Source: a virus
DNA length: 64,000 bases
Direction: 5' to 3' (one strand)
IMG/VR virus record: IMGVR_UViG_3300046673_000164
Span: 1 to 64,000 of that record
Shown: positions 7,773 to 29,920 of the stretch, piece by piece
Layout: each line of letters opens with the position of its first letter
Numbering within the stretch: position 1 is the first letter of the stretch
Position numbers and translations under genes: made by a program
Notes under the pieces: generated by a model
The model's database searches: none
The model's input: only the letters and a program-made list of their open reading frames with translations
Told to the model about the DNA's origin: nothing

Positions 7773-7904
7773 TTACCTCCGTTTTTTCAGACAGCCGCAG
7801 TGAAGCATGCGGCCGGTTTTCAGCGAGGGTGTTTGCTTGATGAGGTATCCACCACACTTACCACAGTTGGGGCACCTTTCCTGTACACCTCTTGGTTGGG
7901 TCAA
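7773..7904 (-). CDS. Small zinc-ribbon-like protein
   Basis: A 43-codon ORF starting at TTG 7904 with AGGAG upstream. The product contains CPNCGKC near residue 11 and LHCGC near residue 35, an arrangement typical of a zinc ribbon, and ends KKRR. It overlaps the 3' end of the preceding gene by 47 nt and stops 5 nt before the next start, filling an otherwise empty gap. Confidence 0.5.
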   Translation of the reverse strand: MTQPRGVQERCPNCGKCGGYLIKQTPSLKTGRMLHCGCLKKRR

Positions 7905-8727
7905 CGATGAATCTCCTATCGACGTCCGAAGATGCGATGGAAAAACGCCGGGCGGGTTTACGCTCGACGGGCGGGGCGGCCACCTCCGCGGAAACGGTCG
8001 CAGTGACCACGGATTGAGTGTTTGCCCAATCGTTCAAGTAGCTGCCCCAATCTGTGTCGCCGACTTTCGGTGTTAAGCTCGATGGATTCGGCCAAGGACT
8101 ACGATCGGGCATTACCCAAGCGGGCTTCGGCAGGGCCGGCGTCGGCTGTGGTATGGGTGGATGCGGAGTCAACTTGTGAATCACCGCCTCGCCGCCGTGG
8201 ATGAGGCCGCCGATCAATCGCCGAATGGGTTTTCGCTTCTGAAAGAAGTTCACCACTGGGCCTTGCGTATTGTTCGGATTCGCGGCGGCCGTCTTGCCCG
8301 TCAGCGGCCAGATGGCGGTCGAAGTCCAGATGTACGGCACGGACGAACCGGGGGGCGTTGCCTGCCAGTAGCCGGGCGTCATCACGGCGTATTGTCCGGT
8401 CATGGGGTTCAGAATTGACCTGGGGGCCGTGGCCCAATTCTCGATAACCGGAACCACGTAGGGCAGTGGGTTGATGTAGGGAGGCACGAAGCCACCGCCC
8501 CAGCCACCCCAGTGTGGATGATCCCAGCCGCCGCCGTGAAAAGGCTGCGGGCCGGGTCCGCCGTGAAAGTCGGGATGCGGCGGGCCGCCGTGGAAATCTC
8601 CGGGACCGGTCAGCGGGCTAGCCAGCGGGCATGATTGCCCCCCGCAGCAGCCTTGGCAACATTGGGCCGCGGCCACGCCGCAGCACGTCAGAACGATCAG
8701 AAGAGCCAGTAGGATTCGCGGAACCAT
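7858..8727 (-). CDS. Exported Gly/His/Pro-rich protein
   Basis: A signal peptide (MVPRILLALLIVLTCCGVAAAQ) precedes a Cys-rich patch (CCQGCCGGQSC) and a Gly/His/Pro/Trp-rich stretch (FHGGPP, FHGGPG, HPHWGGWGGG). A more ordered region follows (about residues 90-150). Such low-complexity His/Gly segments occur in secreted planctomycete proteins. It is the first gene after the duplicated promoter-like element. Function unknown. Confidence 0.6.
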   Translation of the reverse strand: MVPRILLALLIVLTCCGVAAAQCCQGCCGGQSCPLASPLTGPGDFHGGPPHPDFHGGPGPQPFHGGGWDHPHWGGWGGGFVPPYINPLPYVVPVIENWATAPRSILNPMTGQYAVMTPGYWQATPPGSSVPYIWTSTAIWPLTGKTAAANPNNTQGPVVNFFQKRKPIRRLIGGLIHGGEAVIHKLTPHPPIPQPTPALPKPAWVMPDRSPWPNPSSLTPKVGDTDWGSYLNDWANTQSVVTATVSAEVAAPPVERKPARRFSIASSDVDRRFIVDPTKRCTGKVPQLW

Positions 8728-8765
8728 GAGAACTTACCTCCATTTGCAATTGCCTGTTTCCCATT

Positions 8766-8809
8766 ACCCTATTATAACCTACGCCAAACCCTATTATAAC
8801 CTACGCCAA
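8766..8809 (-). promoter_or_regulatory. Perfect 22-bp tandem duplication carrying TATAAT boxes
   Basis: Two identical 22-bp units, 8766-8787 and 8788-8809, each contain TATAAT on the minus strand (8771-8776 and 8793-8798) in the context GTAGGTTATAATAGGG. They lie 40-80 bp before the first gene of the leftward accessory operon. A doubled promoter or operator is the simplest reading; no strong -35 box is seen. Confidence 0.6.
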
Positions 8810-8834
8810 AGAAAACCCAAAACCAAACCAAGAA

Positions 8835-10412
8835 TCAAGACGACGCCAACCGGGAACCGCTTGCAATCTTCGTAACAGTAATTACACCGTCGAAGGAGAA
8901 GTCGAGAGAACGATGATCGATCAGCACTATTACCTTCCGCTCCGCCTCGCTGCGCGCCTGTAAGTGCTGTAGCAAATCGTCGACGCCTCGCGGAGACAAG
9001 TGCTGGGTAGGCTCATCCCATACTTCCAGATTGAGCTGCTCTTCTTTCCGGCTGTTTATCAATCCAGCGATTCCCATCTGCGCGGCCAGCCTCAGCCGCT
9101 GCGTAGCCCCACCACCCCAGCCCTTCCACGGGGCATACTCTCCGGATTCGCCGGAGTTAATCGCCACATTGAACCCACGGGTCACGCCTCCACTCTTGTT
9201 ATCCCTCTCTACGTCCAGCCTAATCCGCCACCGCTCCAGGCCGAGCTGAATCAAACCACTGTTGCAATGCATCTCCAGCTCGGACAACGTCGAATCCATT
9301 ATCCATAGCCGTAAGTCTCGAAACCCATTAACCCAATACAACGCCCTAGCTTCGCTTGAGGCGGCGAGGTCCCGCTTGGCGACCAGAAACCGCTTCCTCG
9401 CCTTGGATCGCGTCAGATCGCATTGCAACGCCTCCAGGGCGGCTTTATGGGGGTTGGAGTCCTCCTCCGCCAGCCGCTCGCGGATCTGCCGCAGACTGGC
9501 CTTGATTTTAGCTAATTCAACCCGGGCATCGGATATATCAGACGTAACCGCGTAAATCTCCTTGCGCTGCTTTGTCTCCCATCGCTCCCGATCCCTACTA
9601 ATCACACTACCACAATACTTACACCGCTCATCCTTCCATCTAGCAGACTTCAACTCGCCCTCCAATATAGCCTGCTGTCTATCAGCCTCCTCCAAGACAA
9701 ACACCAACCCCCGCTTCTTCTCGCGCAGCTTTGCATACTCAGTCTCCAGGCCAAGCCTGCGCTGCTCGTTCTCCTCCTCCCACCGCTCACTATTCTCTCT
9801 CGCGGACTTCCGATGCAGCCGCATGGCTTCGATCTTGCCCTTCTCCCGCTCGATCTGGTTTGTCAGTAATGCGGCAGCCGCAGCGTAGGTGTCCACATCT
9901 GCCTTAGCTTTGTCCGCCCGCTCCTCCCAATAGTCGAGGCCCAACGACTCGGAAAACAGGGCCAGCTTGTCGCTCGGCCCCAAGTCGAGGAAATACTCAG
10001 AGAACTGCCCGATCAAGACAGAATGCAAGAACTCCGTCCCGTTGCGGCCGATCAGCTCGTCTACCCGATCCTGAATCGTCAAGTCGCCATCGATCCGCAA
10101 CTCGTTGGGATTCTGCTGCCGCCACACGCATCGTACCCTTCCGCCAACCTCCAGCTCCAGGCCCACCCAAGCCTGCTCCTCTCCCCAAGACACGACACTT
10201 CCGGCCCGCAATCCCCGCTCCGTCACTCCAAACAAGCACCAATAGACGGCCGACCACAGCGTGGACTTCCCGACGTCGTTGCCCTCCAGGGCCTCATCCA
10301 CTTCATTGATGCCACGCATCAGATACAAGCCGGGCTCCTGTGGTAACTCAATCTCCTGCCGCTCACGGAAGGTGCGAAAGCCTTTCAAGCATATCTTGAG
10401 TAATCGCATCAT
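8835..10412 (-). CDS. SbcC/Rad50-like recombination ATPase
   Basis: The 525-residue protein has an N-terminal Walker A (GNDVGKST, residues 44-51), long coiled coils with a zinc-hook CKYC near residue 270, and a C-terminal ABC-type signature and Walker B (LNLEVWDEP) followed by a D-loop-like SPRG. This is the SMC/Rad50 layout in the short form used by phages (T4 gp46-like). Its partner nuclease lies two genes upstream. Together they process DNA ends for recombination-dependent replication. The start overlaps the upstream stop (ATGA). Confidence 0.85.
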   Translation of the reverse strand: MMRLLKICLKGFRTFRERQEIELPQEPGLYLMRGINEVDEALEGNDVGKSTLWSAVYWCLFGVTERGLRAGSVVSWGEEQAWVGLELEVGGRVRCVWRQQNPNELRIDGDLTIQDRVDELIGRNGTEFLHSVLIGQFSEYFLDLGPSDKLALFSESLGLDYWEERADKAKADVDTYAAAAALLTNQIEREKGKIEAMRLHRKSARENSERWEEENEQRRLGLETEYAKLREKKRGLVFVLEEADRQQAILEGELKSARWKDERCKYCGSVISRDRERWETKQRKEIYAVTSDISDARVELAKIKASLRQIRERLAEEDSNPHKAALEALQCDLTRSKARKRFLVAKRDLAASSEARALYWVNGFRDLRLWIMDSTLSELEMHCNSGLIQLGLERWRIRLDVERDNKSGGVTRGFNVAINSGESGEYAPWKGWGGGATQRLRLAAQMGIAGLINSRKEEQLNLEVWDEPTQHLSPRGVDDLLQHLQARSEAERKVIVLIDHRSLDFSFDGVITVTKIASGSRLASS

Positions 10413-10645
10413 GTCACCATATGTATATGATGCTCAACTTCCAATATCGCATCAAACATACTACTAGCTTGGCCACGAGGAAGATAGATCCAGCGTACTT
10501 TTCCGCCGACATTGTCTATTATTTCCCAATCTGCCCCAAACACATAAGCAACAACCTGATCTTCTACCCACCTCTCCATAGCCAACAACTCAAGCTCCTC
10601 AGACTCGGCATCCCATTCAAAATGCGCTGTCCAACCATTTTTCAT
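10409..10645 (-). CDS. Hypothetical protein between SbcD- and SbcC-like genes
   Basis: A 78-residue acidic protein (MKNGWTAHFEWDAESEELELL...) overlapping both neighbours by 4 nt. The conserved coupling with the Mre11/Rad50-like pair suggests an accessory role, but I see no motif. Confidence 0.55.
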   Translation of the reverse strand: MKNGWTAHFEWDAESEELELLAMERWVEDQVVAYVFGADWEIIDNVGGKVRWIYLPRGQASSMFDAILEVEHHIHMVT

Positions 10646-11619
10646 AACAACTCCCTCCCCACAGCCGCGTCCGCGTCGTCGATACCGGCCTGCTCGCAGT
10701 AGGCCTCGAACTGCTCCCGTGGAGTCCCAATCTTCGCCGTCGGCCCGTCAAGCCGTAACCGCTTCTTCCCGGCTTCCACTAAGGACACCCCACATAGCAG
10801 CAAATCGTTGCGCTCACACATCCGCCGAATCTTCCGCTGATACTTCTCCCAGCAGTCGAACTCCGATCGCCGCAGCGATAGCTCCACCTTGACCTGATCC
10901 CCAGGCTGCCACAAAGGCTGATACTCCAGCTCGTCGGGATCGCTGATCCGCAGCACTAGCTTCTGCGGGCTGATTGGATACAAGTCTTTGTGCTGCTTCC
11001 CGTCGATCAACACCACCCGCGGCTTGAACGCGTCCCCGAAGCGGATCGGATAAGGCGCGCCAACATACTCTACCGGGCCAACCTTCTGTGGGACATGAAT
11101 GTCTCCAGCCCATACTTTCCCACACTTCTCCAGGTCCGACGTAGAACAGCCAGACAGGCTATGGCCAGACTCGCTTGTAGCCCCACGGAACTTCTGATGG
11201 CATCCAACAAAATCGACCCGAACGCTTCTTAGCCGTTGAGGATCGCCAAAAATAGGATCGCGCATGTGCGGGAAGAAGGCCCAGCGACAATTCCCAATCT
11301 CAACTATCTGCGGCTTGGCGTAGTAATAGCAACGCGGATGATGGGCCAAGAATCGAAAGAACGGGCTGGAAGCCTCCGCATAGTCGTGGTTGCCCATCAG
11401 CAAATGAACCGAGATTCCCTCGCGGACGAACTCAGTCAGGGCGGCCACCAACCGATTGACGAGAACGCTGGAGTGACAATCCTTCTCCTCGGTCAAGTCG
11501 CCAAGAATCACCAGAGAGTCGAAGCGGATGCCCCACAACCACTTACTCAAGAAGTCCCAACGATAGGCGTCGTTTGGCCGGTCGGTCAGGTGCAGATCCG
11601 AAGTAAGTAGAGTTAGCAT
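10642..11619 (-). CDS. SbcD/Mre11-like nuclease
   Basis: The 325-residue product has the metallophosphoesterase motifs in order: SDLHLTD (near residue 7), LVILGDLTE, LLMGNHDY, and VWAGDIHVPQ in place of the usual GH-x-H. These ligate two metals in Mre11/SbcD (T4 gp47) nucleases. It forms a unit with the downstream SbcC-like ATPase. The first 77 nt overlap the end of the upstream nuclease gene. Confidence 0.85.
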   Translation of the reverse strand: MLTLLTSDLHLTDRPNDAYRWDFLSKWLWGIRFDSLVILGDLTEEKDCHSSVLVNRLVAALTEFVREGISVHLLMGNHDYAEASSPFFRFLAHHPRCYYYAKPQIVEIGNCRWAFFPHMRDPIFGDPQRLRSVRVDFVGCHQKFRGATSESGHSLSGCSTSDLEKCGKVWAGDIHVPQKVGPVEYVGAPYPIRFGDAFKPRVVLIDGKQHKDLYPISPQKLVLRISDPDELEYQPLWQPGDQVKVELSLRRSEFDCWEKYQRKIRRMCERNDLLLCGVSLVEAGKKRLRLDGPTAKIGTPREQFEAYCEQAGIDDADAAVGRELL

Positions 11620-12133
11620 TCTTCCCTCCGTGAATGAAGTCTTCGGGATCGAGTCTGAGCAAGTTGTCCAGATAGGCTGTCCAGAAGCCTACGTTCGGAA
11701 ACGAGGCTAATAATACCGGGCCGAAGCAACCGGACAGTAAAGGCAGAAACACCAATGCCCGCCTCGCATTCTCTTTCACAATCATCAAAGGCATCTTTTT
11801 GCATTTCCATCCTTGCTTACAGCACTTCTTCCACATCGCTACCAGCTTGCCTCTTCCATAAACAAGCAAGTCAAGATCAAGCCGTTTGTAGCTCTTTGCC
11901 TCGACAAAGAACGTATCCGCGAACGCGAAGCCGTCGGGATGGATGGCAGCAAGGTCGCCCGCCTGATGGTTCAACTCGCCGCCCTTCTTCCGTAACGTTG
12001 TCGCCCGCCCTCCGCTCTGGCTCGACCGCCAGAACAAATCTTTGCTCTTGCCCCCGCTAACCCATAGGGACAGCTTGCGGCATAACTCCCGTTCGAAGCC
12101 GCTTCCCTTCGCCTTGGATGCCTTACCGCCCAT
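11543..12133 (-). CDS. PD-(D/E)XK nuclease, Holliday-junction-resolvase-like
   Basis: The 196-residue protein begins MGGKASKAKGSGFERELCRKL (conserved Glu), then AGDLAAIHP (Asp) and FFVEAKSYKR (E-x-K), the three active-site positions of PD-(D/E)XK nucleases. Phage members resolve recombination junctions or trim DNA. The ATG shares one base with the stop of the RecA-like gene (TAATG). The C-terminal 25 residues overlap the SbcD-like gene and may be dispensable. Confidence 0.65.
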   Translation of the reverse strand: MGGKASKAKGSGFERELCRKLSLWVSGGKSKDLFWRSSQSGGRATTLRKKGGELNHQAGDLAAIHPDGFAFADTFFVEAKSYKRLDLDLLVYGRGKLVAMWKKCCKQGWKCKKMPLMIVKENARRALVFLPLLSGCFGPVLLASFPNVGFWTAYLDNLLRLDPEDFIHGGKNANSTYFGSAPDRPAKRRLSLGLLE

Positions 12134-13695
12134 TAGTACTTCCTCCTGGTCGGAGCGAAGGTTGCTTCCACCCTGGCCCACTCCACCTTGACGGCCCTCG
12201 CCAGCCGTCGACGCTCAAGCGCGTACTCCTCGTCGGCCAGGTCCTGCAGCCAGCGACCATACTCTTTCCAGTCTCCGAAGCCACTATCCACGAACGCCTT
12301 CGGCCCTCCCCTCCCCAATGTCTTCAGCCAGTCACAGGCCGCCGCCACGTCGTCGATTCCGTAGCTGAACAGAATAGGGAAGTCCGCCTCGCGGAACGGC
12401 GGACCGATCTTGTTCTTTTTCACTTTAGCCCGTATCTGCACCCCAACAACCCGCTCCACCTTGTTGATCGTCCGCTTCAGCTGCTTCATGTGGGCGAGCC
12501 ATACGATCTGTGAGGCGTAAAAGTCCAGGGCGCGTCCCCCAGTCCGAGTATGCTTTTCCCCGAACGCCACCCCAATATTGTCTCGCACCTGAGACACAAT
12601 ACACAAAGTCATCTTCGCCTTATCCATCTTCCGCGTCAGGCGGCGGAACAGCTGGCCCATTTGCTTCGGCTTGTTTCCCCCATAGGTGCTCTCGTCGATC
12701 CCGCGGGCCTGCTCCGCCCGATCCGAAACTGCGTCTAGGCTGTCGAGAATATAAAGCGAAGGGCGGTCGCCGTACTTGTCGAGCAGGGACGTTATATCCT
12801 CGAACACATCCTCCACAGTATGCAAAGTCCTCTTCATCTTCACCTGCCCAACAGGCAAGCCGAGGCTCTCCGCATAAGCGCTATCAAAGGCCGCCTCGGT
12901 TTCGCGATAGAAGATTTTGCTGTCACGATACAGCTTGGCGAAGTTGGCGCTAGCTTCGATTGCCAGCAGCGTCTTCCCAGTACTATTATGCACCACAAAC
13001 CCACTAGCTATAAAATTGTGGTGCTTCTCCTCGACGGTAACGTCATAGGTAATCTCGGAGTCTACCGACTGAATGGACACTATTTTCGATAACTCAATCG
13101 CCTTAGTATTGGCCGGCATTTCTTCAGCATGGGTTACATAATGCTCCTTATATCGCGAGACTTCCACCCCACGAGCGCTTCGCCAGCTTCTCACGGGGGT
13201 TCCCACCCGCAACATTCCATCCGCCAAACAACCCCACCCGCCATCGGTGTGAAACAAATGATCTTCTGAAGCCTTGAGGCTGTTACCCCGATCATCGCTT
13301 ATCGCATACAATCGCTTACGGCATGAACGACTAACTGCCGATACCTGAGTTAATCCTACATATCCTCCAACATCAGCCACCAAATACGTTAGAGCGTTAG
13401 CATTACGGTTTGGGTGATTCCCAGTAAATCGATTGAATAGCGTTCGAAGCGTCATCTTCTTTGGGCTAACCCCACGCTGAACGGACACAATCGTATCACC
13501 AGAGAGGCATTTGTCGCCCACGATATTGACGATCTTCCCCTCTGGCCAGCCTCCGCCAAGAGCGCAGTCGAGAAGCTGGCAGCCAGAAGAAAACAACCTA
13601 ACGGAGGAGGGCGGAGCAAAGTACGCCCCACCACTCTTCCGCTTCGGCCGCGGTGCTAAGGAGTCGTCGCTCAGTGATAATCGTTCGCGATCCAT
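12133..13695 (-). CDS. RecA/UvsX-like recombinase interrupted by a mini-intein
   Basis: The 520-residue precursor is a RecA-family ATPase split inside its Walker A. N-extein residues 1-62 end in IVNIVGDK; the C-extein resumes STGKTLLAIEA, so splicing restores GDKSTGKT. The Walker B is LYILDSLDAV and a RecA-like QTNxxV-equivalent region appears as VSQVRDNIGV. After excision the protein has 345 residues, near RecA size. It sits among nuclease, ssDNA-binding and polymerase genes. It should load onto ssDNA for strand exchange in phage recombination. Confidence 0.85.
   Translation of the reverse strand: MDRERLSLSDDSLAPRPKRKSGGAYFAPPSSVRLFSSGCQLLDCALGGGWPEGKIVNIVGDKCLSGDTIVSVQRGVSPKKMTLRTLFNRFTGNHPNRNANALTYLVADVGGYVGLTQVSAVSRSCRKRLYAISDDRGNSLKASEDHLFHTDGGWGCLADGMLRVGTPVRSWRSARGVEVSRYKEHYVTHAEEMPANTKAIELSKIVSIQSVDSEITYDVTVEEKHHNFIASGFVVHNSTGKTLLAIEASANFAKLYRDSKIFYRETEAAFDSAYAESLGLPVGQVKMKRTLHTVEDVFEDITSLLDKYGDRPSLYILDSLDAVSDRAEQARGIDESTYGGNKPKQMGQLFRRLTRKMDKAKMTLCIVSQVRDNIGVAFGEKHTRTGGRALDFYASQIVWLAHMKQLKRTINKVERVVGVQIRAKVKKNKIGPPFREADFPILFSYGIDDVAAACDWLKTLGRGGPKAFVDSGFGDWKEYGRWLQDLADEEYALERRRLARAVKVEWARVEATFAPTRRKY
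12985..13509 (-). other. Mini-intein in the RecA-like Walker A
   Basis: The inserted segment encodes 175 residues (63-237 of the precursor). It starts CLSGDT (block A Cys1), has SLKASEDHLFHT (block B-type His), YDVTVEEKHHNFIASG (block F) and ends VVHN, followed by Ser as the +1 nucleophile. All splicing residues are present. At this length there is no room for a homing endonuclease domain, so the element can splice but probably cannot home. Confidence 0.88.
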
Positions 13696-19729: not shown

Positions 19730-20758
19730 TTAACCCTCCGCTTTGACACCCACCAGAACTTGGAAATTGTCTCCCTCCAACACAATACAACGATCGCTAA
19801 TCCCAATCCGCTTGGCGACATCGAGATAGCGGAGCACATACTCTGCGCAGGTGTAGACTTTGATTGGCTCCTCGCCCAAGTCGATTTTGACCGAATCGCG
19901 AATCTCAATCCCCTGATCCTTGGCTAGCAGATTCAGCCGACCATCAGCATAAGAGAACTCGACGTCTTCCTTCTGCGAAGCGATCAAGGATCGTTGCAGG
20001 CAGCGAGCCAACGACGCCGGTACGTCGGCCTTGGGTATTTCGTCGAGCTTAGATGACAAGATCATCTTCTCGTAGCGGTCGGGTTCGGGATCGCCTATCA
20101 ACTTACCGAACAGTTGCGCCTCATCAGACACGCCAATCACATCACCTCCCGTGGTGAACACAATCTTAGTATTGGCTCCAATGCCCAACAGCAGCTCATA
20201 GAACCGAGGCGGCAGAACGAAGCTCTTTCCAGAGAGCTTCGACACCCTATGGTTTTCCACCACCCGAGCCACACTAACGTTGTCCGTCCCAAACAGGGTT
20301 AGTTTCTTTTCTCCAAAAACAAGGGTGATCCCGCTCAGCGTCGGGTGCATTAGATTCAGGGTGGCAGACCGAGAAACGATCTTGACCGCCTCTCGCAGCT
20401 TCACATCCAAGTCAAGCTCGATACCTCTAATCTTCGGAGGAACAAACACAAAGTCACTAGTCGGCAATACCGCCAACTTGAGCTTAGATCGCCCCAGCTT
20501 GAACAGCGCCTGACCATCATCCTGCTGACACTCTACATCAGCAGCCGAAGATGAAGAGAGGACGGCCAGAAGCTGAGCACCTGGAACCGCTCCTTCCAAC
20601 TCCAGATCACAATCGCATCGAAGAGCAACAGAATCATTGTAGGCGCTGACCTGCCCATCACAGAAGCATAGGTGGGTCAAAACCGGGATTAGAGAACTAG
20701 CCCCAGCAAGGGCTGGTTGCACACGACGTAAGGCGGATAACAACTCTTCTCTATACAT
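19730..20758 (-). CDS. Sliding clamp (DnaN-like)
   Basis: The 342-residue product has the length and alternating strand/helix pattern of a bacterial-type beta clamp: MYREELLSALRRVQPALAG at the start, an AVPGAQLLAVLSS segment, SATLNLMHPTLSGITLVFGEKKLTLFGTDN (typical of domain 2), and SFVLPPRFYELLL. It should encircle DNA and tether the polymerase. The clamp loader and polymerase genes are downstream in the same operon. It overlaps the DpdA-like gene by 8 nt. Confidence 0.75.
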   Translation of the reverse strand: MYREELLSALRRVQPALAGASSLIPVLTHLCFCDGQVSAYNDSVALRCDCDLELEGAVPGAQLLAVLSSSSAADVECQQDDGQALFKLGRSKLKLAVLPTSDFVFVPPKIRGIELDLDVKLREAVKIVSRSATLNLMHPTLSGITLVFGEKKLTLFGTDNVSVARVVENHRVSKLSGKSFVLPPRFYELLLGIGANTKIVFTTGGDVIGVSDEAQLFGKLIGDPEPDRYEKMILSSKLDEIPKADVPASLARCLQRSLIASQKEDVEFSYADGRLNLLAKDQGIEIRDSVKIDLGEEPIKVYTCAEYVLRYLDVAKRIGISDRCIVLEGDNFQVLVGVKAEG

Positions 20759-21818
20759 ACTGGAAACTCCTTAGTCTGTCAGGACCGCCCAAAGAACGAT
20801 CCGCGAACGACACCAACTTGTATTGTGGGTAGCAGAATATCTTTGGGTCCATGTAATGCTTTACGGTCCACAAGTCGGAAAGCCACGAGCCATCAAACAC
20901 CTGTAACCTGCGCCACGGGACCGTAATCACACCCCCATCCTCAAACAGATTTGTAGGAATTACGAACGGTTTTATTTGATACTCGACGCAGAATCGGATG
21001 TTGATATACGAGTTGACCAACAAACGAAAAGTCCTAGCAGAACACTTGTCTACCCCAGACTTGCGTTTGACGTCGGTCCTAGGCGGCATACTGAAACAGC
21101 TCTCCAGCCCAGTAGCCTCGACAAAGTCGAGGATGTACTTTCGATTCTCGGCTCCGATACCCAACGACTTCAACCACCGATCACGGAGCTTACCATACAT
21201 TTCGCCGCCATGCGCCCGCTCAGAAACATAGATCCGTCTCGGAGCCACCGTGTAGCAGTACTCCCCATCGCGCATCTGAGGAATGAGGATGCCACCCCTA
21301 CCGGCATTCCCAAACGCGCTCGTGCTGTCGCAGGAGAACCATGGGTAGCGTGTCATCAGACCAAACCGAGTCACAGCAAACCCATGCACCTTGACCATCT
21401 CCCCCCTACGATGAAAAATATGGGAGAAAACGGAATCGAGCCATCGAATAAGCTGCTCGTTGCTGACCCGCAGAAGGCCGCCGACCCCCAGATAGTCGAT
21501 ACCACTATCCAAAATCTTGTCCAGCCAATAGACACGCTCGGAGTAATGAAACACCGGCATCGGACTGAAGCCAGATCGAACCATTCGCTGATAGTTCTTC
21601 CAGCTACCCTTAGCGGCCTCCTCCACAATCATCGGGTCGGTTCGACTGCTTGGAATTACGTCGAGGTTCACGTAGGTCTGCAAAATATCCTCGACCTGCT
21701 CGATGTAGTTGCAATACTCGGTCAGATCGACCGTCAGGCCTTTTGTCCAGACCGAGACCGCCCCACTATCAAGCATCATCGTACAAAACAGCTTGTCCAA
21801 ACGCTCTCGTGTCTTCAT
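20751..21818 (-). CDS. dpdA: DpdA-like DNA 7-deazaguanine transglycosylase
   Basis: The 355-residue protein has the TGT-like barrel signature of phage DpdA: Asp17 in MMLDSGAVSVW (equivalent to DSGGFQ of tRNA-guanine transglycosylase), YLGVGG (110-114), and Asp164 in WFSCDSTSA, the likely nucleophile. DpdA exchanges guanine in DNA for preQ0 or a derivative, protecting phage DNA from restriction. The surrounding queC, queD, queE and folE genes make the precursor. It overlaps the FolE fusion gene by 4 nt. I infer the family from these motifs and context. Confidence 0.78.
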   Translation of the reverse strand: MKTRERLDKLFCTMMLDSGAVSVWTKGLTVDLTEYCNYIEQVEDILQTYVNLDVIPSSRTDPMIVEEAAKGSWKNYQRMVRSGFSPMPVFHYSERVYWLDKILDSGIDYLGVGGLLRVSNEQLIRWLDSVFSHIFHRRGEMVKVHGFAVTRFGLMTRYPWFSCDSTSAFGNAGRGGILIPQMRDGEYCYTVAPRRIYVSERAHGGEMYGKLRDRWLKSLGIGAENRKYILDFVEATGLESCFSMPPRTDVKRKSGVDKCSARTFRLLVNSYINIRFCVEYQIKPFVIPTNLFEDGGVITVPWRRLQVFDGSWLSDLWTVKHYMDPKIFCYPQYKLVSFADRSLGGPDRLRSFQYV

Positions 21819-22714
21819 TTTCCTCGTGCTCCAGACAAGAACTCCTCGCGGGCCTTTGCGTCATCCTTGAAGACTCCTCGCAAAGCGCAGGTAGAAGTGG
21901 TAATGCCCGCCTGATGAATGCCGCGGCTCTCCATGCACGTGTGGCGGCACTCAATCAGCACCGCCACGCCCTTTGGCTCCAAGCCGTTCTGTAGGGCGTC
22001 GGCCACCTGATTGGTCAAGCGCTCCTGCACTTGCAAACGATGGGAGTAGATGGAGACAAGACGACTGACCTTGCTCAGCCCCACAATCCGATCGTTGGGG
22101 ACATAGGCAACGTGCGCGACGCCGAAGAAGGGCGCTAGGTGATGCTCACAAAAGGACCATAACGGCACGTCCCGCAGCAAAATCATCTCGTCATACTTCT
22201 CCGCCCCGTCCGCGAAGCTGTGGAGTATCTCGGCGGGGTCTTGCTTGTAGCCAGAAGTCCAATGCTGCCACGCCTTAGCGAAGCGCTCCGGCGTCTTGAG
22301 CAGCCCTTCCCGCTTTGGGTCCTCGCCGATATACTCCAGCAGCCGGGTGGCAATGTCCATGCCAGATGATAACGACCCGTCGCAGCCCTCTTGCTTCTCC
22401 CAGGGGAAGACGACCCACTGCGACGGATCATCTTTAAGATGCAGGGAGAAGAAGGGCTTGTCGGGATACCGCTGCCGCCAGACCTCTTGCGTGCGACCAG
22501 AGTCGACAATATCATCGACAATGACGGCTGCCAACTCAGGATCATCTGCCGCTTCAATCCGCTCAGGGAACAAGCTACTGAGCAGCATGGCCACGATCGT
22601 CCCGCCACGGGGCACCCCATGCACCACCACGGGCAAGGGGAGGGGCGTCGCCAGAATTGCTCTGCCTAGCGCTCGCAGCTTTTCCTGAGTCCGCCGTATC
22701 GTTAGGTCCAGCAT
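21815..22714 (-). CDS. folE: Phosphoribosyltransferase-GTP cyclohydrolase I (FolE) fusion
   Basis: ATG 22714 follows GGGAGAG with good spacing and gives 299 residues. Residues 1-105 are a type I phosphoribosyltransferase: [10 protein letters not shown] near 30 and the PRPP loop [13 protein letters not shown] (63-75). Residues 118-299 are GTP cyclohydrolase I with zinc ligands Cys189 and His192 in [10 protein letters not shown] and Cys260 in [10 protein letters not shown]. FolE makes dihydroneopterin triphosphate, the first step to preQ0. The fused PRT may act on a purine to feed GTP or on a pathway intermediate; this is inference. Confidence 0.85.
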
Positions 22715-22883
22715 CGCTTCTCTCCCGATGAATGGCAGCGTAGACTTCCTGCCGATGAACAGAAACTTCTTTCGGCGCCTCGACTCCGAGGCGTACCTTA
22801 TCCCCACGAATCTCGACGATCGTGATAGTAACATCGTCTCCAATCACGATCGCCTCACCCCGATGACGCGACAGAACCAGCAT
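22575..22883 (-). CDS. csrA: CsrA/RsmA family RNA-binding regulator
   Basis: Residues 1-53 match Csr[21 protein letters not shown], then [20 protein letters not shown]. CsrA dimers bind GGA motifs in mRNA leaders and alter translation or stability. The frame continues to 103 residues with a low-complexity tail that overlaps the first 140 nt of the FolE fusion gene. The tail may be a by-product of the overlap or of a frame error. It lies between queC and folE. Targets could be host or phage transcripts; GGA motifs are common in this phage's leaders. Confidence 0.85.
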
Positions 22884-22910
22884 AGATCGTCCCTCCTTAA
22901 ACAAAGAATC

Positions 22911-23603
22911 CTACAAACCCTTGGCCCTCGCCACCAACGGATCGACAATACCGGCCTCGGCAAATCCCTTGGCCCGCAGCAAACAGGCATGACAATGACC
23001 GCAGGGCGGGAAGACGCCGTTATAGCAGGTATGGCTATAGGCCAGAGCTTCCATGCACTCCGGCAACGCAGCAGCCAACTCAACTGTCTTCTTCTTGCTG
23101 AGGAAGAGTACCGGAGCCCAAATAGCTAACTCCGATTCCCCAGCAGCGTGATGAATCGTCTTGTTGGCTGAGATGAGAAACTGCTCCCGACAATCGGGAT
23201 AACCACCAAAGTCTTCCTGACTCACCCCTACCACCAAAATCCTGGCGCCATGATGATAAGCGCGGTTGGCGGCCAGGGTCAGGAACAAAAGATTACGCAT
23301 AGGAATGAAGGTGGCTTCGATCCCTCCCGGCAAGACCTCCGCCGAGGCGTACTGGACGACATCGACGCTCTTATTCACCAACGGACTGGAGGATTGAAGT
23401 ACGCCATCGGGCAGCAGCAACAACTCCCGCTCAACGTCGGCCATCTCCGCCACCTTCCACGACGCTTCGATCTCGCAGCAATGCTTCTGCCCATAGAAGA
23501 TCGACAGCGCCTTGACTTCCGCTTTCCCCCACCGCCGAATTGCAGCATACAAGCAGGTCGTCGAATCCTGCCCGCCAGACAATAACACAATGGCTTTGGT
23601 CAT
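22911..23603 (-). CDS. queC: QueC, 7-cyano-7-deazaguanine (preQ0) synthase
   Basis: The 230-residue protein has the PP-loop SGGQDST (9-15), FYGQKH, a FIPMRNLLFLTLA segment and a C-terminal zinc site CYNGVFPPCGHCHACLLR, all typical of QueC. It converts CDG to preQ0 with ATP and ammonia. Length matches bacterial QueC. A TTTGTATATCTA motif and AAGGAGG precede the ATG, and a strong terminator isolates it from the upstream gene, so it probably opens its own transcript with csrA, folE and dpdA. Confidence 0.93.
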   Translation of the reverse strand: MTKAIVLLSGGQDSTTCLYAAIRRWGKAEVKALSIFYGQKHCCEIEASWKVAEMADVERELLLLPDGVLQSSSPLVNKSVDVVQYASAEVLPGGIEATFIPMRNLLFLTLAANRAYHHGARILVVGVSQEDFGGYPDCREQFLISANKTIHHAAGESELAIWAPVLFLSKKKTVELAAALPECMEALAYSHTCYNGVFPPCGHCHACLLRAKGFAEAGIVDPLVARAKGL

Positions 23604-23621
23604 GGTTAAACCCTCCTTGAC

Positions 23622-23634
23622 TAGATATACAAAT
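23622..23634 (-). promoter_or_regulatory. TTTGTATATCTA promoter-like motif before queC
   Basis: The minus strand reads ATTTGTATATCTAG about 20 nt before the queC start, directly downstream of the terminator at 23650-23700. A new transcript has to begin in this gap, so the motif is a good promoter candidate. Confidence 0.5.
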
Positions 23635-23649
23635 CAGCTCTTTCCCCAC

Positions 23650-23700
23650 AAAAAGAAAGGTGGGTGAGGAGCCGGGGCCTACCCCGCAAACTCCTCACCC
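23650..23700 (-). terminator. Strong intrinsic terminator
   Basis: GGGTGAGGAG (23662-23671) pairs perfectly with CTCCTCACCC (23691-23700), with a small GGGG/CCCC hairpin inside. On the minus strand the stem is followed by ACCTTTCTTTTTG. It ends transcription behind the acidic/basic repeat gene. Confidence 0.85.
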
Positions 23701-23715
23701 GCCCAAACGCCACCG

Positions 23716-24426
23716 CTAGCCCTTCAACGCGCCGCGCTTCTGCAGCGAGGCCAGAGTGCTCTTGATCGCCGCCAGCTGCACCCCAATTGTGCCCTTGCCC
23801 GGAACAATCCCCTTCTTCTCCAGCTTGGCCAAGACCTTGTCGGTCAAAGCCTTGGGGCTCTTGTCCGGAGCGGCGAGGAAGGCGTCGAGGTACGCTTCCC
23901 GCAAGTTCTCGACAATGCCGGTGCCCGGCGCCTTCTTCTCGAACGGGGTGTCGCCCTTCTTCTTCGCCTTGGGCGCCTCTTCCTCGTCTTCGTCCTCATC
24001 GTCGGCGGCCTTGGCCTTCTTCGGCTTCTTGGCCTTGGGCGCCTCTTCCTCCTCGTCCTCGTCTTCGTCCTCATCGTCGGCGGCCTTGGCCTTCTTCGGC
24101 TTCTTGGCCTTGGGCGCCTCTTCCTCGTCCTCTTCCTCTTCGTCCTCATCGTCGGCGGCCTTGGCCTTCTTCGGCTTCTTGGCCTTGGGCGCCTCTTCCT
24201 CCTCGTCCTCGTCGGCGGCATCGGGGTCGACGATCGCCTTCTTGGCCTTGATCGCCAAGACGGCCTCGTTGGTCCAATCCTGATCCGCTTCGGGCAGCGT
24301 CGCCCAGTCGTCCTCCGGCGCCTTCAGTACGGCCTTGACCAGCCGCTCCAGATACGCCTGCCGCTCCTCGCCGTCCTCCGGCTTGCAGCCAGTCAACTTC
24401 ACCAATGCTTTCAATGCACTCGCCAT
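23716..24426 (-). CDS. Acidic/basic repeat protein, possible DNA-binding ends
   Basis: The 236-residue protein has an N-terminal helical domain (about 1-70), a central array of four near-identical units built as acidic runs followed by APKAKKPKKAKAADDED, and a C-terminal helical domain (VENLREAYLDAFLAAPDK...). Lys/Ala/Pro-rich units resemble histone H1-like tails, here alternating with acidic stretches. A role in condensing or organising DNA is possible. It lies between queD and the terminator in the modification operon. Confidence 0.6.
   Translation of the reverse strand: MASALKALVKLTGCKPEDGEERQAYLERLVKAVLKAPEDDWATLPEADQDWTNEAVLAIKAKKAIVDPDAADEDEEEEAPKAKKPKKAKAADDEDEEEEDEEEAPKAKKPKKAKAADDEDEDEDEEEEAPKAKKPKKAKAADDEDEDEEEAPKAKKKGDTPFEKKAPGTGIVENLREAYLDAFLAAPDKSPKALTDKVLAKLEKKGIVPGKGTIGVQLAAIKSTLASLQKRGALKG
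23968..24215 (-). repeat. Tandem repeats encoding acidic/KKPKKAKAA units
   Basis: About four tandem units of roughly 65-75 bp, differing mainly in the number of GAG/GAC codons, lie inside the gene at 23716-24426. Length variation within the acidic runs suggests slippage or unequal recombination. Confidence 0.7.
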
Positions 24427-24439
24427 AGCTCGATCCCTT

Positions 24440-24850
24440 TCAAAGCTCTGCCCAACAGGTGGGCGTTTCAAAAAGCCGCATGGACACCATGCCCATGGGC
24501 AGACCTACCAAACGTTGACGAATCTCGGTCGCAATCTGCTCGATCATGTTCTCGACCGTAGGTTCGTCCTTCATCTCCACTATACAAATATCCAAGTTGC
24601 TATCTCGCAGTATTTGCAGTAGTGGATCACAAGAGCATAACGCAACGGCGTGATCCCACTCCGCCAGTACTCCCGCGATCAGGCATTTGACTTCGTAGAA
24701 GTCCATCACCATGCCATGGTCCTCAGCGTTCCCCCACAGCACAATCTCAATCCCATAGGTGTGGCCGTGGAGGTTATGGCACTTGCCTTCGTGCTCGGGC
24801 AAGCGGTGGGCCATGTCGAAGGTCGTCTTGAATCCGATCCGTGCCATCAT
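24440..24850 (-). CDS. queD: QueD, 6-carboxytetrahydropterin synthase
   Basis: From ATG 24850 the 136-residue protein has zinc ligands His15 (MAHRLPEH), His28 and His30 (NLHGHTYG) with catalytic Cys24 just before them, then MVMDFYEVK, a conserved WDHAVAL segment and PTVENMIEQIA. All match QueD, which converts dihydroneopterin triphosphate to 6-carboxytetrahydropterin. It overlaps queE by 4 nt (ATGA). Confidence 0.93.
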   Translation of the reverse strand: MMARIGFKTTFDMAHRLPEHEGKCHNLHGHTYGIEIVLWGNAEDHGMVMDFYEVKCLIAGVLAEWDHAVALCSCDPLLQILRDSNLDICIVEMKDEPTVENMIEQIATEIRQRLVGLPMGMVSMRLFETPTCWAEL

Positions 24851-25440
24851 TGCACCCCTATGATCTTCTGAGTTTGTAGGCTGAGGCGCCACCCGCGACG
24901 CATACACAAGTCGATGCATGTCCTCAGGTTGGCCTTGTTCTTCTCATCGTCGTGGTCATCACGAGGCTGAACGAAAGTCGGGATAGGTCCAGTATAGCAC
25001 TCCTGCCGATCTTCGGCCCCAACAACAAACTTAAAAGCGCTGGCATTCTTGACGATGCCGAAACGAACGGCGTGACTCGGCTTCGGCGAGCAGACGATCG
25101 AAACGAACTTTGGAATTGCCCACTCAATCTCGGGCTGCCAAAGTGTGCCGTTGGTTTCGATCTGCACCGCGCACTTCTGAGCAAACAGAATCTTGACCAG
25201 CAAAGACAAGGGCTGCGTGAAGGGCTCACCTCCGGTGATGACCACGAAGCGATTGGGTGGGATGATCTGCTCGACGGCATACATAATGTCCGCCTCGCAC
25301 ATCTCTTTGGCATCAGTGGTGTGGTCGGTGTCGCACCACGAACAGGAGAGATTGCAGCCGGCCAACCGGATGAATACGGCCGGAGTGCCTACGTCAGGGC
25401 CTTCCCCTTGCAGGGAGGCAAAGATTTCCTTGACTCGCAT
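24847..25440 (-). CDS. queE: QueE, 7-carboxy-7-deazaguanine synthase (radical SAM)
   Basis: The 197-residue protein begins MRVKEIFASLQGEG and has the CX3CX2C cluster motif Cys29, Cys33, Cys36 (AGCNLSCSWCDTDH), then VVITGGEPFTQP, QIETNGT and SPKPSHAV, typical of QueE. It forms the deazapurine ring with SAM and Mg2+. It is the first gene of the queE-queD unit and is preceded by a TTGGGA-16-TATAAT promoter. Confidence 0.93.
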   Translation of the reverse strand: MRVKEIFASLQGEGPDVGTPAVFIRLAGCNLSCSWCDTDHTTDAKEMCEADIMYAVEQIIPPNRFVVITGGEPFTQPLSLLVKILFAQKCAVQIETNGTLWQPEIEWAIPKFVSIVCSPKPSHAVRFGIVKNASAFKFVVGAEDRQECYTGPIPTFVQPRDDHDDEKNKANLRTCIDLCMRRGWRLSLQTQKIIGVQ

Positions 25441-27224: not shown

Positions 27225-27230
27225 ATTATA
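27225..27230 (-). promoter_or_regulatory. TATAAT box overlapping the AAA+ gene stop
   Basis: The minus strand reads GCATATAATGGGG across the TAA stop of the AAA+ gene. No good -35 element is seen 16-18 bp upstream. It may start a transcript whose leader carries the tRNA-like fold. Confidence 0.35.
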
Positions 27231-28680
27231 TGCTGATCCTCCGTTTCGATCCAGCCTGCTGCCGACGATAGACGCCCGGTTTGCTGGCGCTGATATACTT
27301 GCCCTCAGCTGCATCCCTCGCGGCCTTCACGACCTCTGGGTTCGCCTTGCCGTTGCTGGAGGCGAACTGCAACACGTCCTTGAGCGAGCGGCCCATCTTC
27401 CAAGCCATCTCGCATATGTTGCGGATGTCCGACCCACTCCAGTCCGTATCGTCCGGCTGCTTGTCCTTGGCGTCGATCTCGAACTTGCCCCGATGCAATT
27501 CCCACATCGCTGCCCGCTCCTCGTCGTCGGGCATATCGAACATCCACACTCCGTAGCGGAAGCGGCGGACCAACTCCGGCGGCACGTTCATCTTGTTCAT
27601 GCTCGCCACAAAGAACACCTCGCGGCCGCCAATGGCGATCAGGGTCTTTACCACATTACGAACGTTGGCCTCGCTGCTGCCCACCAACCCCTCTTTCGTA
27701 GCGTTAATGTCGAACACCAGCGGCAACCGATCAAAGGTGTTGGCCAGCGCCTTGCTGTAGAGGCTCTTGCCCGTACCGGGAGGGCCGAAGGCAATCTGCC
27801 CCGCCCAACCGTTGTCTTCCATCGCGGAGAGAAACACCTGAAGAGCGTCTTGGCTCGTTCCGCTCAAGTCTCCCTGCGAGCCAGCCATCGACTTTTCAAG
27901 CTCTTCGACCCGCACCACCACCGCCGGCGGATGGGGCCCGGTAAACAAAGCCTCGCCAAAATCCTTTGCGTTGCTCAACCCGCGAATGTCGTCGAACGTC
28001 TCGCTGCCCTCGTCGAAGGTCAGGCCCCGGCGCTCGATGGCCTTCCGCTTGCCCTGCCACAACTGGGCGATGTCCACTCCTTCTTTCGTCAGGGCCATTG
28101 CCAGCTCTTGCTCGGCGGAGAACGCTGACAAGCCACGGAGGGCTTGCACCACCCGCTCTAAGGTCGCCTTGTCCAGCTCACCAGCAGTCTCGACGGCGAT
28201 CTCGCGCAGCCGGTCCTGGTCGGGCAGTGGCTCGTCGATCACCACCACGTCGCGGGCCAGCGGCTTCGGAAGCTGGTGGTCGGCGGCCAACAGAACGAGC
28301 ATGCGCTGGTTCTGCTTGTATTCATCCCGCAGATTCCAGCAGCCCTGCACAACGGGCAACCCACGGTCGAAGCATGCCTGCGAGTTGTGCCAAAACACCA
28401 CGGTGCCGTCGGGATAGCTCTGAGCGGCGAGCAGGAAGGCTGCGGGGTCTCCCTCCGTGTCGGACGAGGCGTAGGTCAGTCCAGCCTCATTCACCGCGAC
28501 CGTTCCGCGGCACACGTCCCACGCCAAAATCGGGGCATCTTCGTGGCCTTTGACGGTCGGCAGCACTTTGCCGATCTCTCGGATCGTCGAAGCCGGGTCG
28601 GGCGTGTTGATCGCCACCAGTGGCACTCCGGCTCGGCAGGCCGCCCGGTACAAGTCCAGCCAGTTCTTTTGATTCTTCAT
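27226..28680 (-). CDS. Ycf46-like AAA+ ATPase
   Basis: The 484-residue protein has an N-terminal part in the style of Ycf46 (PLVAINTPDP..., APILAWDVCRG, GDPAAFLLAAQ, then QRMLVLLAADHQLPKPLARDVVVIDEPLP), and a C-terminal AAA+ module with Walker A GPPGTGKS and VFFVASMNKMNVPPELVRRF as sensor region. Ycf46 ATPases are of uncertain function and occur with DUF1257 (Ycf35) and DUF2997 proteins; both are encoded just upstream here. A hammerhead ribozyme separates it from the DUF2997-like gene. Confidence 0.75.
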   Translation of the reverse strand: MKNQKNWLDLYRAACRAGVPLVAINTPDPASTIREIGKVLPTVKGHEDAPILAWDVCRGTVAVNEAGLTYASSDTEGDPAAFLLAAQSYPDGTVVFWHNSQACFDRGLPVVQGCWNLRDEYKQNQRMLVLLAADHQLPKPLARDVVVIDEPLPDQDRLREIAVETAGELDKATLERVVQALRGLSAFSAEQELAMALTKEGVDIAQLWQGKRKAIERRGLTFDEGSETFDDIRGLSNAKDFGEALFTGPHPPAVVVRVEELEKSMAGSQGDLSGTSQDALQVFLSAMEDNGWAGQIAFGPPGTGKSLYSKALANTFDRLPLVFDINATKEGLVGSSEANVRNVVKTLIAIGGREVFFVASMNKMNVPPELVRRFRYGVWMFDMPDDEERAAMWELHRGKFEIDAKDKQPDDTDWSGSDIRNICEMAWKMGRSLKDVLQFASSNGKANPEVVKAARDAAEGKYISASKPGVYRRQQAGSKRRISI

Positions 28681-28699
28681 CACTTGGTCTCCGCCAGAG

Positions 28700-28768
28700 G
28701 AACCTGCCTCGTCAGGAGCGGTAGGTAATCTCCGCTCGACGCCCCGAAGGGCGTTTCGGCTAGTGCTG
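28700..28768 (-). ncRNA. Type II hammerhead ribozyme A
   Basis: Read on the minus strand: stem II half AGCC (28761-28758), core GAAAC (28757-28753), stem III GCCC-TTCG-GGGC (28752-28741), cleavage triplet GUC (28740-28738), stem I GAGCGG...CCGCTC (28737-28716), core CUGACGA (28715-28709), stem II half GGC (28708-28706). All conserved hammerhead core bases (CUGANGA, GAAA, NUH) are in the right order. It starts at the stop codon of the DUF2997-like gene and ends before the ribosome binding site of the AAA+ gene. Predicted cut is after 28738. Confidence 0.88.
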
Positions 28769-28993
28769 ATGAACGTGGCCGTCGTGGCAATGTTGCTCGA
28801 AAGCCTTTTGCATCGACGATCCCAACTCCATCTTCGTTCGCTTGCGGCAGGTGGTCTCGCCACCCGCAAGCTCGTTGATCCGCTTTATCAGCTTGTCGGC
28901 CGATAGGTGGTTCTGCCCGCTGATCCCGTCCGTGATTATGCTGATCGTTCCGTCCTCCAGAATCTCGATCTTGATTTCGTCTTGTTGGGCCAT
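28760..28993 (-). CDS. DUF2997-like protein
   Basis: A 77-residue protein with KIEILEDGTISIITDGISGQNHLSADKLIKRINELAGGE, the usual DUF2997 pattern, and a His-rich end (HCHDGHVHQH). DUF2997 genes often lie beside DUF1257 and Ycf46-type ATPases, as here. Its stop codon (TAG) is part of the hammerhead ribozyme's first stem. Confidence 0.7.
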   Translation of the reverse strand: MAQQDEIKIEILEDGTISIITDGISGQNHLSADKLIKRINELAGGETTCRKRTKMELGSSMQKAFEQHCHDGHVHQH

Positions 28994-28994
28994 C

Positions 28995-29306
28995 TCACCA
29001 CCCTCCCTTCGCTGCGACCGCCTGGGTCTCGGTCTTCCACATTGGCTTCCAGTTCATCGCCTGGCAGGCCAACAAGACGGCCTGCTTGCTGTAGGAGCGT
29101 TTCAGGTCGTTGACTGTCCGCTGATCCTTTGCGATCGCCTTACCAGCAGCCAAGTCGATCTTAATCACCCCCCGCATGTCGCTGAGGGTCACGTTGTTGC
29201 CGAGCCGGGTGAATCGATAGCCCAGCTCGACGGCCGCCTTCTCCAATAGGTCGACATGCTCGACCTCGAACGCGACCGACACGGTCTGTACTTGGTAACA
29301 TGGCAT
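28995..29306 (-). CDS. DUF1257 (Ycf35-like) protein
   Basis: The 103-residue protein MPCYQVQTVSVAFEVEHVDLLEKAAVELGYRF... matches the short DUF1257/Ycf35 pattern, with a beta-alpha repeat and LSDMRGVIKIDL. Start at ATG 29306 because TGGAGG lies just upstream. Together with the DUF2997-like and Ycf46-like genes it forms a conserved trio of unknown function. A second hammerhead ribozyme lies directly upstream. Confidence 0.7.
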   Translation of the reverse strand: MPCYQVQTVSVAFEVEHVDLLEKAAVELGYRFTRLGNNVTLSDMRGVIKIDLAAGKAIAKDQRTVNDLKRSYSKQAVLLACQAMNWKPMWKTETQAVAAKGGW

Positions 29307-29324
29307 CACTTGGCCTCCAAGAGG

Positions 29325-29390
29325 AACCTGCCTCATCAGCGCCGGTGGGCTAGGTCCGGCGGACGCCCCGCAGGGCGTTTCGGCTATTCA
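29325..29390 (-). ncRNA. Type II hammerhead ribozyme B
   Basis: Minus-strand order: AGCC (29385-29382), GAAAC (29381-29377), stem III GCCC-TGCG-GGGC (29376-29365), GUC (29364-29362), stem I CGCCGG...CCGGCG (29361-29340), CUGAUGA (29339-29333), GGC (29332-29330). It is nearly the same as ribozyme A in stems II and III but differs in stem I, where both strands have changed together. It again begins at the stop (TAG) of the upstream gene. Predicted cut is after 29362. Confidence 0.9.
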
Positions 29391-29920
29391 CAATGGCTCT
29401 TGAGCGTCTTGGCCTGCGACGGAGTGATCGGAGCCGGCTCGCCCCGCTGCCCCTTTTTCCCGGCGAGCAACTGAATCTTGACCGTCGACATGCTCAGACC
29501 GTATTCGCCGGAAATGTCGGTGACGGCCGCGAAGGCGTCTTCCACATCCCAACCATTCTTTCCCATCCAACGGAGGACGGCAGTCACCGAGTAGTCAAAC
29601 ACCCTGGCCCGATGGACAATGCGGGGCGCCCGCTCTTTCTTCTCGGCCGGCGCGTCCTTATATTCCTCGGTTACCACCGCGCTGGTCGATCCGGAGCGCG
29701 CGTAGCCGTTGAAGCGATCCGCCTTAGCCAACGTCTCGTTGATTGCCTTCTGAAAGAGGCGGTCGGCGTGGGTCATCACCTCGACGGTCAGCTCAGCCGC
29801 ATCAATTCGCTGTTCGGCCAAGATCGCTGCGTCCTCTTTGACGTGGTGTGGGTAGATTCCGTAGTGGTCGGCCAAGGCCGCAATCCGCACCGCCAACTCA
29901 GCTCTGATTTCGCTTTGCAT
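29384..29920 (-). CDS. Hypothetical protein upstream of the Ycf46-like trio
   Basis: A 178-residue helical protein (MQSEIRAELAVRIAALADHYGIYPHH...) with a C-terminal region (VLRWMGKNGWDVEDAFAAVTDISGEYGLSMSTVKIQLLAG) that could hold a helix-turn-helix. It is the first gene after a long leader and ends in the second hammerhead ribozyme. No family recognised. Confidence 0.55.
   Translation of the reverse strand: MQSEIRAELAVRIAALADHYGIYPHHVKEDAAILAEQRIDAAELTVEVMTHADRLFQKAINETLAKADRFNGYARSGSTSAVVTEEYKDAPAEKKERAPRIVHRARVFDYSVTAVLRWMGKNGWDVEDAFAAVTDISGEYGLSMSTVKIQLLAGKKGQRGEPAPITPSQAKTLKSHCE

Follow-up and report, generated by a model that had tools for sequence, protein, structure and literature searches.

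The window, the whole stretch of 64,000 nt of phage DNA analysed here, contains two type II hammerhead ribozymes, hereinafter copy A and copy B. The order on the minus strand is 178-aa gene, copy B, 103-aa gene, 77-aa gene, copy A and AAA ATPase gene, and the features are as follows (the caret marks the predicted cut).

29384..29920, minus strand: 178-aa gene, upstream of copy B (open reading frame; the UAG stop at 29384-29386 overlaps the ribozyme)
29322..29385, minus strand: type II hammerhead ribozyme copy B (Rfam RF02276; core and stems read directly)
28995..29306, minus strand: 103-aa gene, downstream of copy B (AUG at 29306, SD GGAGG at 29314-29318)
28760..28993, minus strand: 77-aa gene, upstream of copy A (open reading frame; the UAG stop at 28760-28762 overlaps the ribozyme)
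28698..28761, minus strand: type II hammerhead ribozyme copy A (Rfam RF02276)
27226..28680, minus strand: AAA ATPase gene, downstream of copy A (AUG at 28680, SD GGAG at 28689-28692)
Copy B RNA: UAGCC GAAA CGCCC(UGCG)GGGCG UC^CGCCGG(ACCUAGCCCA)CCGGCG CUGAUGA GGC AGGUU
Copy A RNA: UAGCC GAAA CGCCC(UUCG)GGGCG UC^GAGCGG(AGAUUACCUA)CCGCUC CUGACGA GGC AGGUU

The initial annotation had placed the two copies around a three-gene module named Ycf46/DUF1257/DUF2997. Given the gene order on the minus strand, copies A and B bracket two genes, not three: the 103-aa and 77-aa open reading frames are enclosed, and the ATPase gene lies downstream of copy A. The module name is not supported either. An AAA domain is present in the ATPase only, which matches PF00004 (E 1.8e-7) and phrog_8638 (E 2.2e-32); the 103-aa protein does not match DUF1257, and the 77-aa protein reaches DUF2997 only below the cut-off (E 0.071, 13.4 vs 24.1 bits). 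The 178-aa protein has no match in Pfam or PHROG. The 103-aa frame also has an AUG at 29336, in the copy B core (CUGAUGA); it was rejected as the true start in favour of AUG 29306, which has the SD. No promoter- or terminator-like sites were found among these genes on the minus strand.

Elsewhere on the minus strand, the stretch 20751-25440 contains QueC and a GTP cyclohydrolase I fused to a phosphoribosyltransferase-like N-terminus, and adjoining open reading frames resemble QueD and QueE by eye; this is likely a 7-deazaguanine DNA modification cluster. A 251-aa protein (23716-24471, minus strand) carries repeated blocks of acidic and lysine-rich residues (EEAPKAKKPKKAKAADDEDEE).

Copy B matches RF02276 (Hammerhead_II) with a score of 39.8 bits (gathering score 37; E 1.3e-4) in a cmscan against all 4227 Rfam families, while copy A, with 35.8 bits (E 1.4e-3), falls just under the gathering score. 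A search of the genome with the single family RF02276 gives E values of 3.0e-8 and 3.4e-7 for copies B and A, respectively, and the family has no match in any of 14 control genomes. Specifically, CUGANGA, GAAA and UC^ are intact in both copies and agree with the family consensus (CUGANGA, GAAA and UH at the cut); the core of copy A is CUGACGA, with C at position 7. The hammerhead initially read at the copy B site is thus borne out by both the family match and the intact core. A core-plus-stems scan of 122 loci, among the matches listed, returns 158 matches vs none in letter-shuffled sequence.

In the Rfam alignment, stems I and III of both copies form hairpins and stem II is open. Stem II is GCC/GGC in both copies and is followed by the tail AGGUUCCUC. 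By eye, both copies have a loop I/tail pseudoknot (ACCU/AGGU), which in copy B is either at a shifted position or formed by AGCC/GGUU with one G-U pair. When copy B is folded in 2D alone, pairing with downstream sequence outcompetes its stem II. Copies A and B are type II hammerheads, members of a known family, and are predicted from their sequences to cleave themselves, at 28738|28737 in copy A and at 29362|29361 in copy B. Because C17 of copy B is position 29362, the first base of the predicted 3' product is 29361, one base from the 5' end proposed earlier.

Comparison of copies A and B confirms the compensatory stem I changes described by the initial annotation: three of six pairs differ, namely pairs 1-3, each changed on both sides (C-G/G-C, G-C/A-U, C-G/G-C), and pairs 4-6 are identical. 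Two copies alone are thin evidence for the selected fold that had been argued for, but a larger set covaries far more widely. This same-tail set comprises 17 distinct ribozymes with the tail AGGUUC, copies A and B included, among the matches listed, and was gathered by a pattern that did not require pairing in stems I and III. Stem I is formed throughout the set (n=17), with 3-5 pair types at every pair. Stem III is also formed, except for one parse with a break, and its pairs 2-5 show four pair types each.

Both copies stand in the same position relative to their neighbours. In each case stem II begins with the G of the upstream UAG stop, and the cut site lies 22 nt past the stop. From the cut to the next SD-led start codon there are 55 nt in copy B and 57 nt in copy A. 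This placement is widespread in type II hammerheads. In three non-redundant samples, 100 of 127, 108 of 139 and 85 of 133 ribozymes, among the matches listed, start within 10 nt of an upstream same-strand stop, i.e. 64-79% vs 19% for random placement within ribozyme-free same-strand gaps (6% for random positions). The stop-to-ribozyme distance has its mode at -1 to 0, where -1 means that the last base of the stop is shared with stem II. About three quarters of type II ribozymes have an SD-led start within 120 nt downstream, with a median gap of 26 nt from stem II to that start (both among the matches listed). These placement figures are estimates, because the open reading frames were called mechanically. 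The stops at the ribozymes, among the matches listed, are TAA (110), TAG (88) and TGA (62), while TGA prevails in the local background.

Type I hammerheads show the same tendency, with 78% within 10 nt of a stop (97 non-redundant, among the matches listed). In phages carrying type I (L495-L614), many stops lie inside the ribozyme, some of them being the UGA in the conserved CUGAUGA of the core. The proposal that type II was chosen as the sole type leaving hairpins on both ends is weakened, as type I is found at stops equally often; hairpins on both new ends are therefore not the whole reason for the placement.

No close relatives of this phage were found by protein or DNA searches. The only relative of the ATPase, in Tunturiibacter phage Tunturi_3 (31% identity), has no hammerhead in the surrounding 17.5 kb, and a blastn match to Propionibacterium phage Lauchelly was rejected, as it lacks hammerhead structure. 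Relatives of the ribozymes are numerous, and the placement rule and the core-tail covariation were drawn from several hundred of them in phages. Pattern scans of IMG/VR gave at least 120 matches for each of three stem II variants and at least 120 for type I, and bacterial genomes yielded 118 pattern matches, about 31 of which are ribozymes after a stem filter. In whole-record searches of multi-copy phages, every copy is on one strand and in one block (10 copies in G017, 7 in G005, 7 in G022 and 11 in Streptomyces phage Alvy). The tie of the ribozymes to a named gene set, expected initially, is not supported: across 124 genes that follow related ribozymes, each protein family occurs at most three times, among the matches listed.

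Alvy is a cultured phage (L494, NC_054669.1, 40000-53011) with its 11 type II hammerheads in the early region; its deposited annotation of this stretch lists CDS only, and the hammerheads are unannotated. Several of these ribozymes extend across annotated CDS starts, and most of ORF 84 (24 aa) lies on one ribozyme, so those genes may have been miscalled. Deposited annotations of Faecalibacterium phage Mushu and Roseobacter phage CRP-212 agree with the placement: one gene terminates on the ribozyme, and the following gene begins about 20 nt beyond it.

Long-loop-I ribozymes support the loop/tail contact. Among the matches listed, 38 of 43 have at least four complementary bases between loop and tail, vs 10.9 expected from redistributing the tails across ribozymes; this matches the type II pseudoknot reported previously (Perreault 2011, PMC3088659).

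In many type II relatives the tail contains CNUCAG, which complements the core CUGANG (CUGACG...CGUCAG or CUGAUG...CAUCAG). This core-tail hairpin is absent from copies A and B. The complement occurs only where loop I is at most 7 nt long (52 of 300 such ribozymes, ~17%, among the matches listed), and the preferred spacing between its five-base arms is 6-7 nt. In the exploratory sample, the tail GUCAG accompanies 21 of 55 ribozymes with C at position 7 and 2 of 82 with U, and the tail AUCAG accompanies 0 of 55 and 7 of 82, respectively (matches listed). The same covariation appears in independent samples, other stem II sequences and bacterial genomes unused in forming the idea, where C goes with 15 G and 2 A and U with 5 G and 18 A (Fisher p 7e-5, among the matches listed). 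Likewise among the matches listed, all non-redundant ribozymes give 30 G and 2 A for C, 7 G and 25 A for U (p 4e-9), and one ribozyme per locus cluster and state gives 23/2 and 7/13 (p 8e-5). UCAG is the top-ranking one of 211 four-letter suffixes, with the runner-up at p 4e-4 (among the matches listed), and both C/A exceptions have GUCAG as well, at the main position. Examples of the covariation are found in L273, L268, L098, L024 and L081, and in L273 also among copies within one phage.

In 2D energies, which ignore tertiary contacts, the core-tail hairpin beats stem II in 44 of 50 cases, by a median of 1.45 kcal/mol. Because it is incompatible with the active core, it would be an off state in uncut RNA or a latch in the 3' product. 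We give an even chance to the reading that phage hammerheads are a general, stop-codon-anchored punctuation that includes a type II sub-class, with loop I of at most 7 nt, carrying such a refolding hairpin; cleavage would then have to precede capture of the core by the tail, or the hairpin would latch the 3' product irreversibly after cleavage. No prior description of this hairpin was found in the openly available papers searched, and its novelty is provisional.

The sequence, structure, covariation and placement of copies A and B are established here, and we consider it likely that both are functional type II hammerheads acting as intercistronic cut sites in one long minus-strand transcript. 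Specifically, each ribozyme would fold directly on the upstream stop as RNA polymerase passes, and would cut itself between stems III and I. The upstream mRNA would end 22 nt past the stop, in the stem III hairpin, with a 2',3'-cyclic phosphate, while the downstream mRNA would start with a flush stem I hairpin and a 5'-OH, with SD and AUG ~55-57 nt further on. Three messages would result, one ending with the 178-aa gene, one with the 103-aa and 77-aa genes, and one starting with the AAA ATPase gene, and the separated messages would carry fixed, structured ends. Cleavage would probably occur in the cell, the ends would be protected and neighbouring genes uncoupled, to the benefit of the phage. 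The interpretation in the initial annotation survives in part: the hammerhead and its stem I compensation stand and processing is the best-supported role, whereas the three-gene module, the DUF1257 name and the tie to a gene set are not supported.

Alternatively, the two copies might act as a pair whose cuts release a 624-nt piece; RtcB or another ligase would then close it into a circular mRNA for the 103-aa and 77-aa genes. The piece would have a 5'-OH and a 2',3'-cyclic phosphate, exactly the ends that RtcB joins, and retrozymes elsewhere form such circles (PMC7761336). However, searches of the phage record turned up neither RtcB nor a T4-type RNA ligase (the ligase search had no positive control; a host RtcB is possible), many relatives have a single ribozyme or a long series rather than a pair, and circular or spliced products were sought in similar arrays and not detected (Perreault 2011, PMC3088659), which makes this reading very unlikely. 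Nor do we favour a regulated switch for the downstream gene, in which cutting, a ligand or a protein would alter access to the SD; in a variant for the same-tail family, UUCCUC of the tail could bind the SD (GGAGG) in uncut RNA and GAGG of the core strand once cleavage has occurred. Unrelated phages share the tail AGGUUCCUY, GAGG/CCUC has a pair probability of about 0.4 in the copy A 3' product, and long-loop relatives have a slight excess of complements to their own core GAGN (13 vs 7.0 expected, p 0.0075; p 0.02 without the same-tail family; among the matches listed). By contrast, the same pair probability is 0 in the predicted ensemble of copy B, CCUC pairs with any SD by nature, and position 7 does not covary in the same-tail family, so that we regard such a switch as unlikely. 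Carrying the core-tail hairpin over to copies A and B as GAGG/CCUC was likewise set aside as weakly supported.

A passenger motif, small and either selfish or neutral, that spreads among phages and sits at gene ends, where insertions are least harmful, would fit the diversity of the adjacent genes. It would also fit a 56-kb phage contig (L025) whose proteins have almost no similarity to those of this phage, yet whose region 7846-12884 carries four ribozymes very like copy A, including the tail AGGUUCCUC, a case of possible horizontal spread between phages. But stems covary and cores are intact across many lineages, the placement at stop codons is precise, and informal inspection shows no inserted unit beyond ribozyme and tail; this explanation appears improbable. 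Still less can be said for a chance resemblance, or for a hairpin that serves another purpose, for instance as a terminator, which we regard as exceedingly improbable. Stem III is indeed a GC-rich hairpin directly after a stop codon, but it has no U tract and the minus strand here has no terminator-like match, on which grounds a terminator was rejected; chance was rejected on the E-values, the absence of shuffled matches, the full conserved core and the stem covariation.

Intercistronic cutting agrees with earlier work, in which hammerheads flanking prophage genes were described and mRNA processing of long phage transcripts was proposed (Perreault 2011, PMC3088659). Three tandem prophage arrays cleave in vitro, and A. 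tumefaciens ribozymes also cleave in E. coli, while 4 of 18 consensus hammerheads tested were inactive (PMC3088659). Copies A and B share with Hammerhead_II (RF02276) the core, the permutation with stem II open, the loop I/tail pseudoknot and the arrangement around (pro)phage genes on one strand (PMC3088659). Nothing essential differs, apart from details such as stem II GCC/GGC with its tail and the shifted pseudoknot of copy B; the phage and the gene pair are new. HHphage of haloviruses HF1 and HF2, where a mapped transcript 5' end coincides with the cut (PMC3088659), is likewise a hammerhead in a phage operon, in an early-gene context and shortly upstream of a start codon, but it has an atypical core with insertions near C3, belongs to an archaeal virus and is a single copy. 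As in plant and animal retrozymes (PMC4918200, PMC7761336), two hammerheads bracket a unit of several hundred nucleotides, although here the unit lies in a protein-coding phage operon, has no repeat and has no known circular product.

The kind of ribozyme is already known, and the placement rule and the core-tail covariation in relatives are what is of wider interest. The role of bacterial and phage hammerheads has been unproven since the 2011 report. A strict rule, with the ribozyme on the stop and the next start ~60 nt past the cut, favours cistron separation over regulation of a single gene. The tail covariation supplies the one variable position of the core with a pairing partner and suggests a switch that acts during transcription or after cleavage. 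Punctuation can be tested directly in cultured phages that carry many unannotated copies, Alvy with its 11 being an example.
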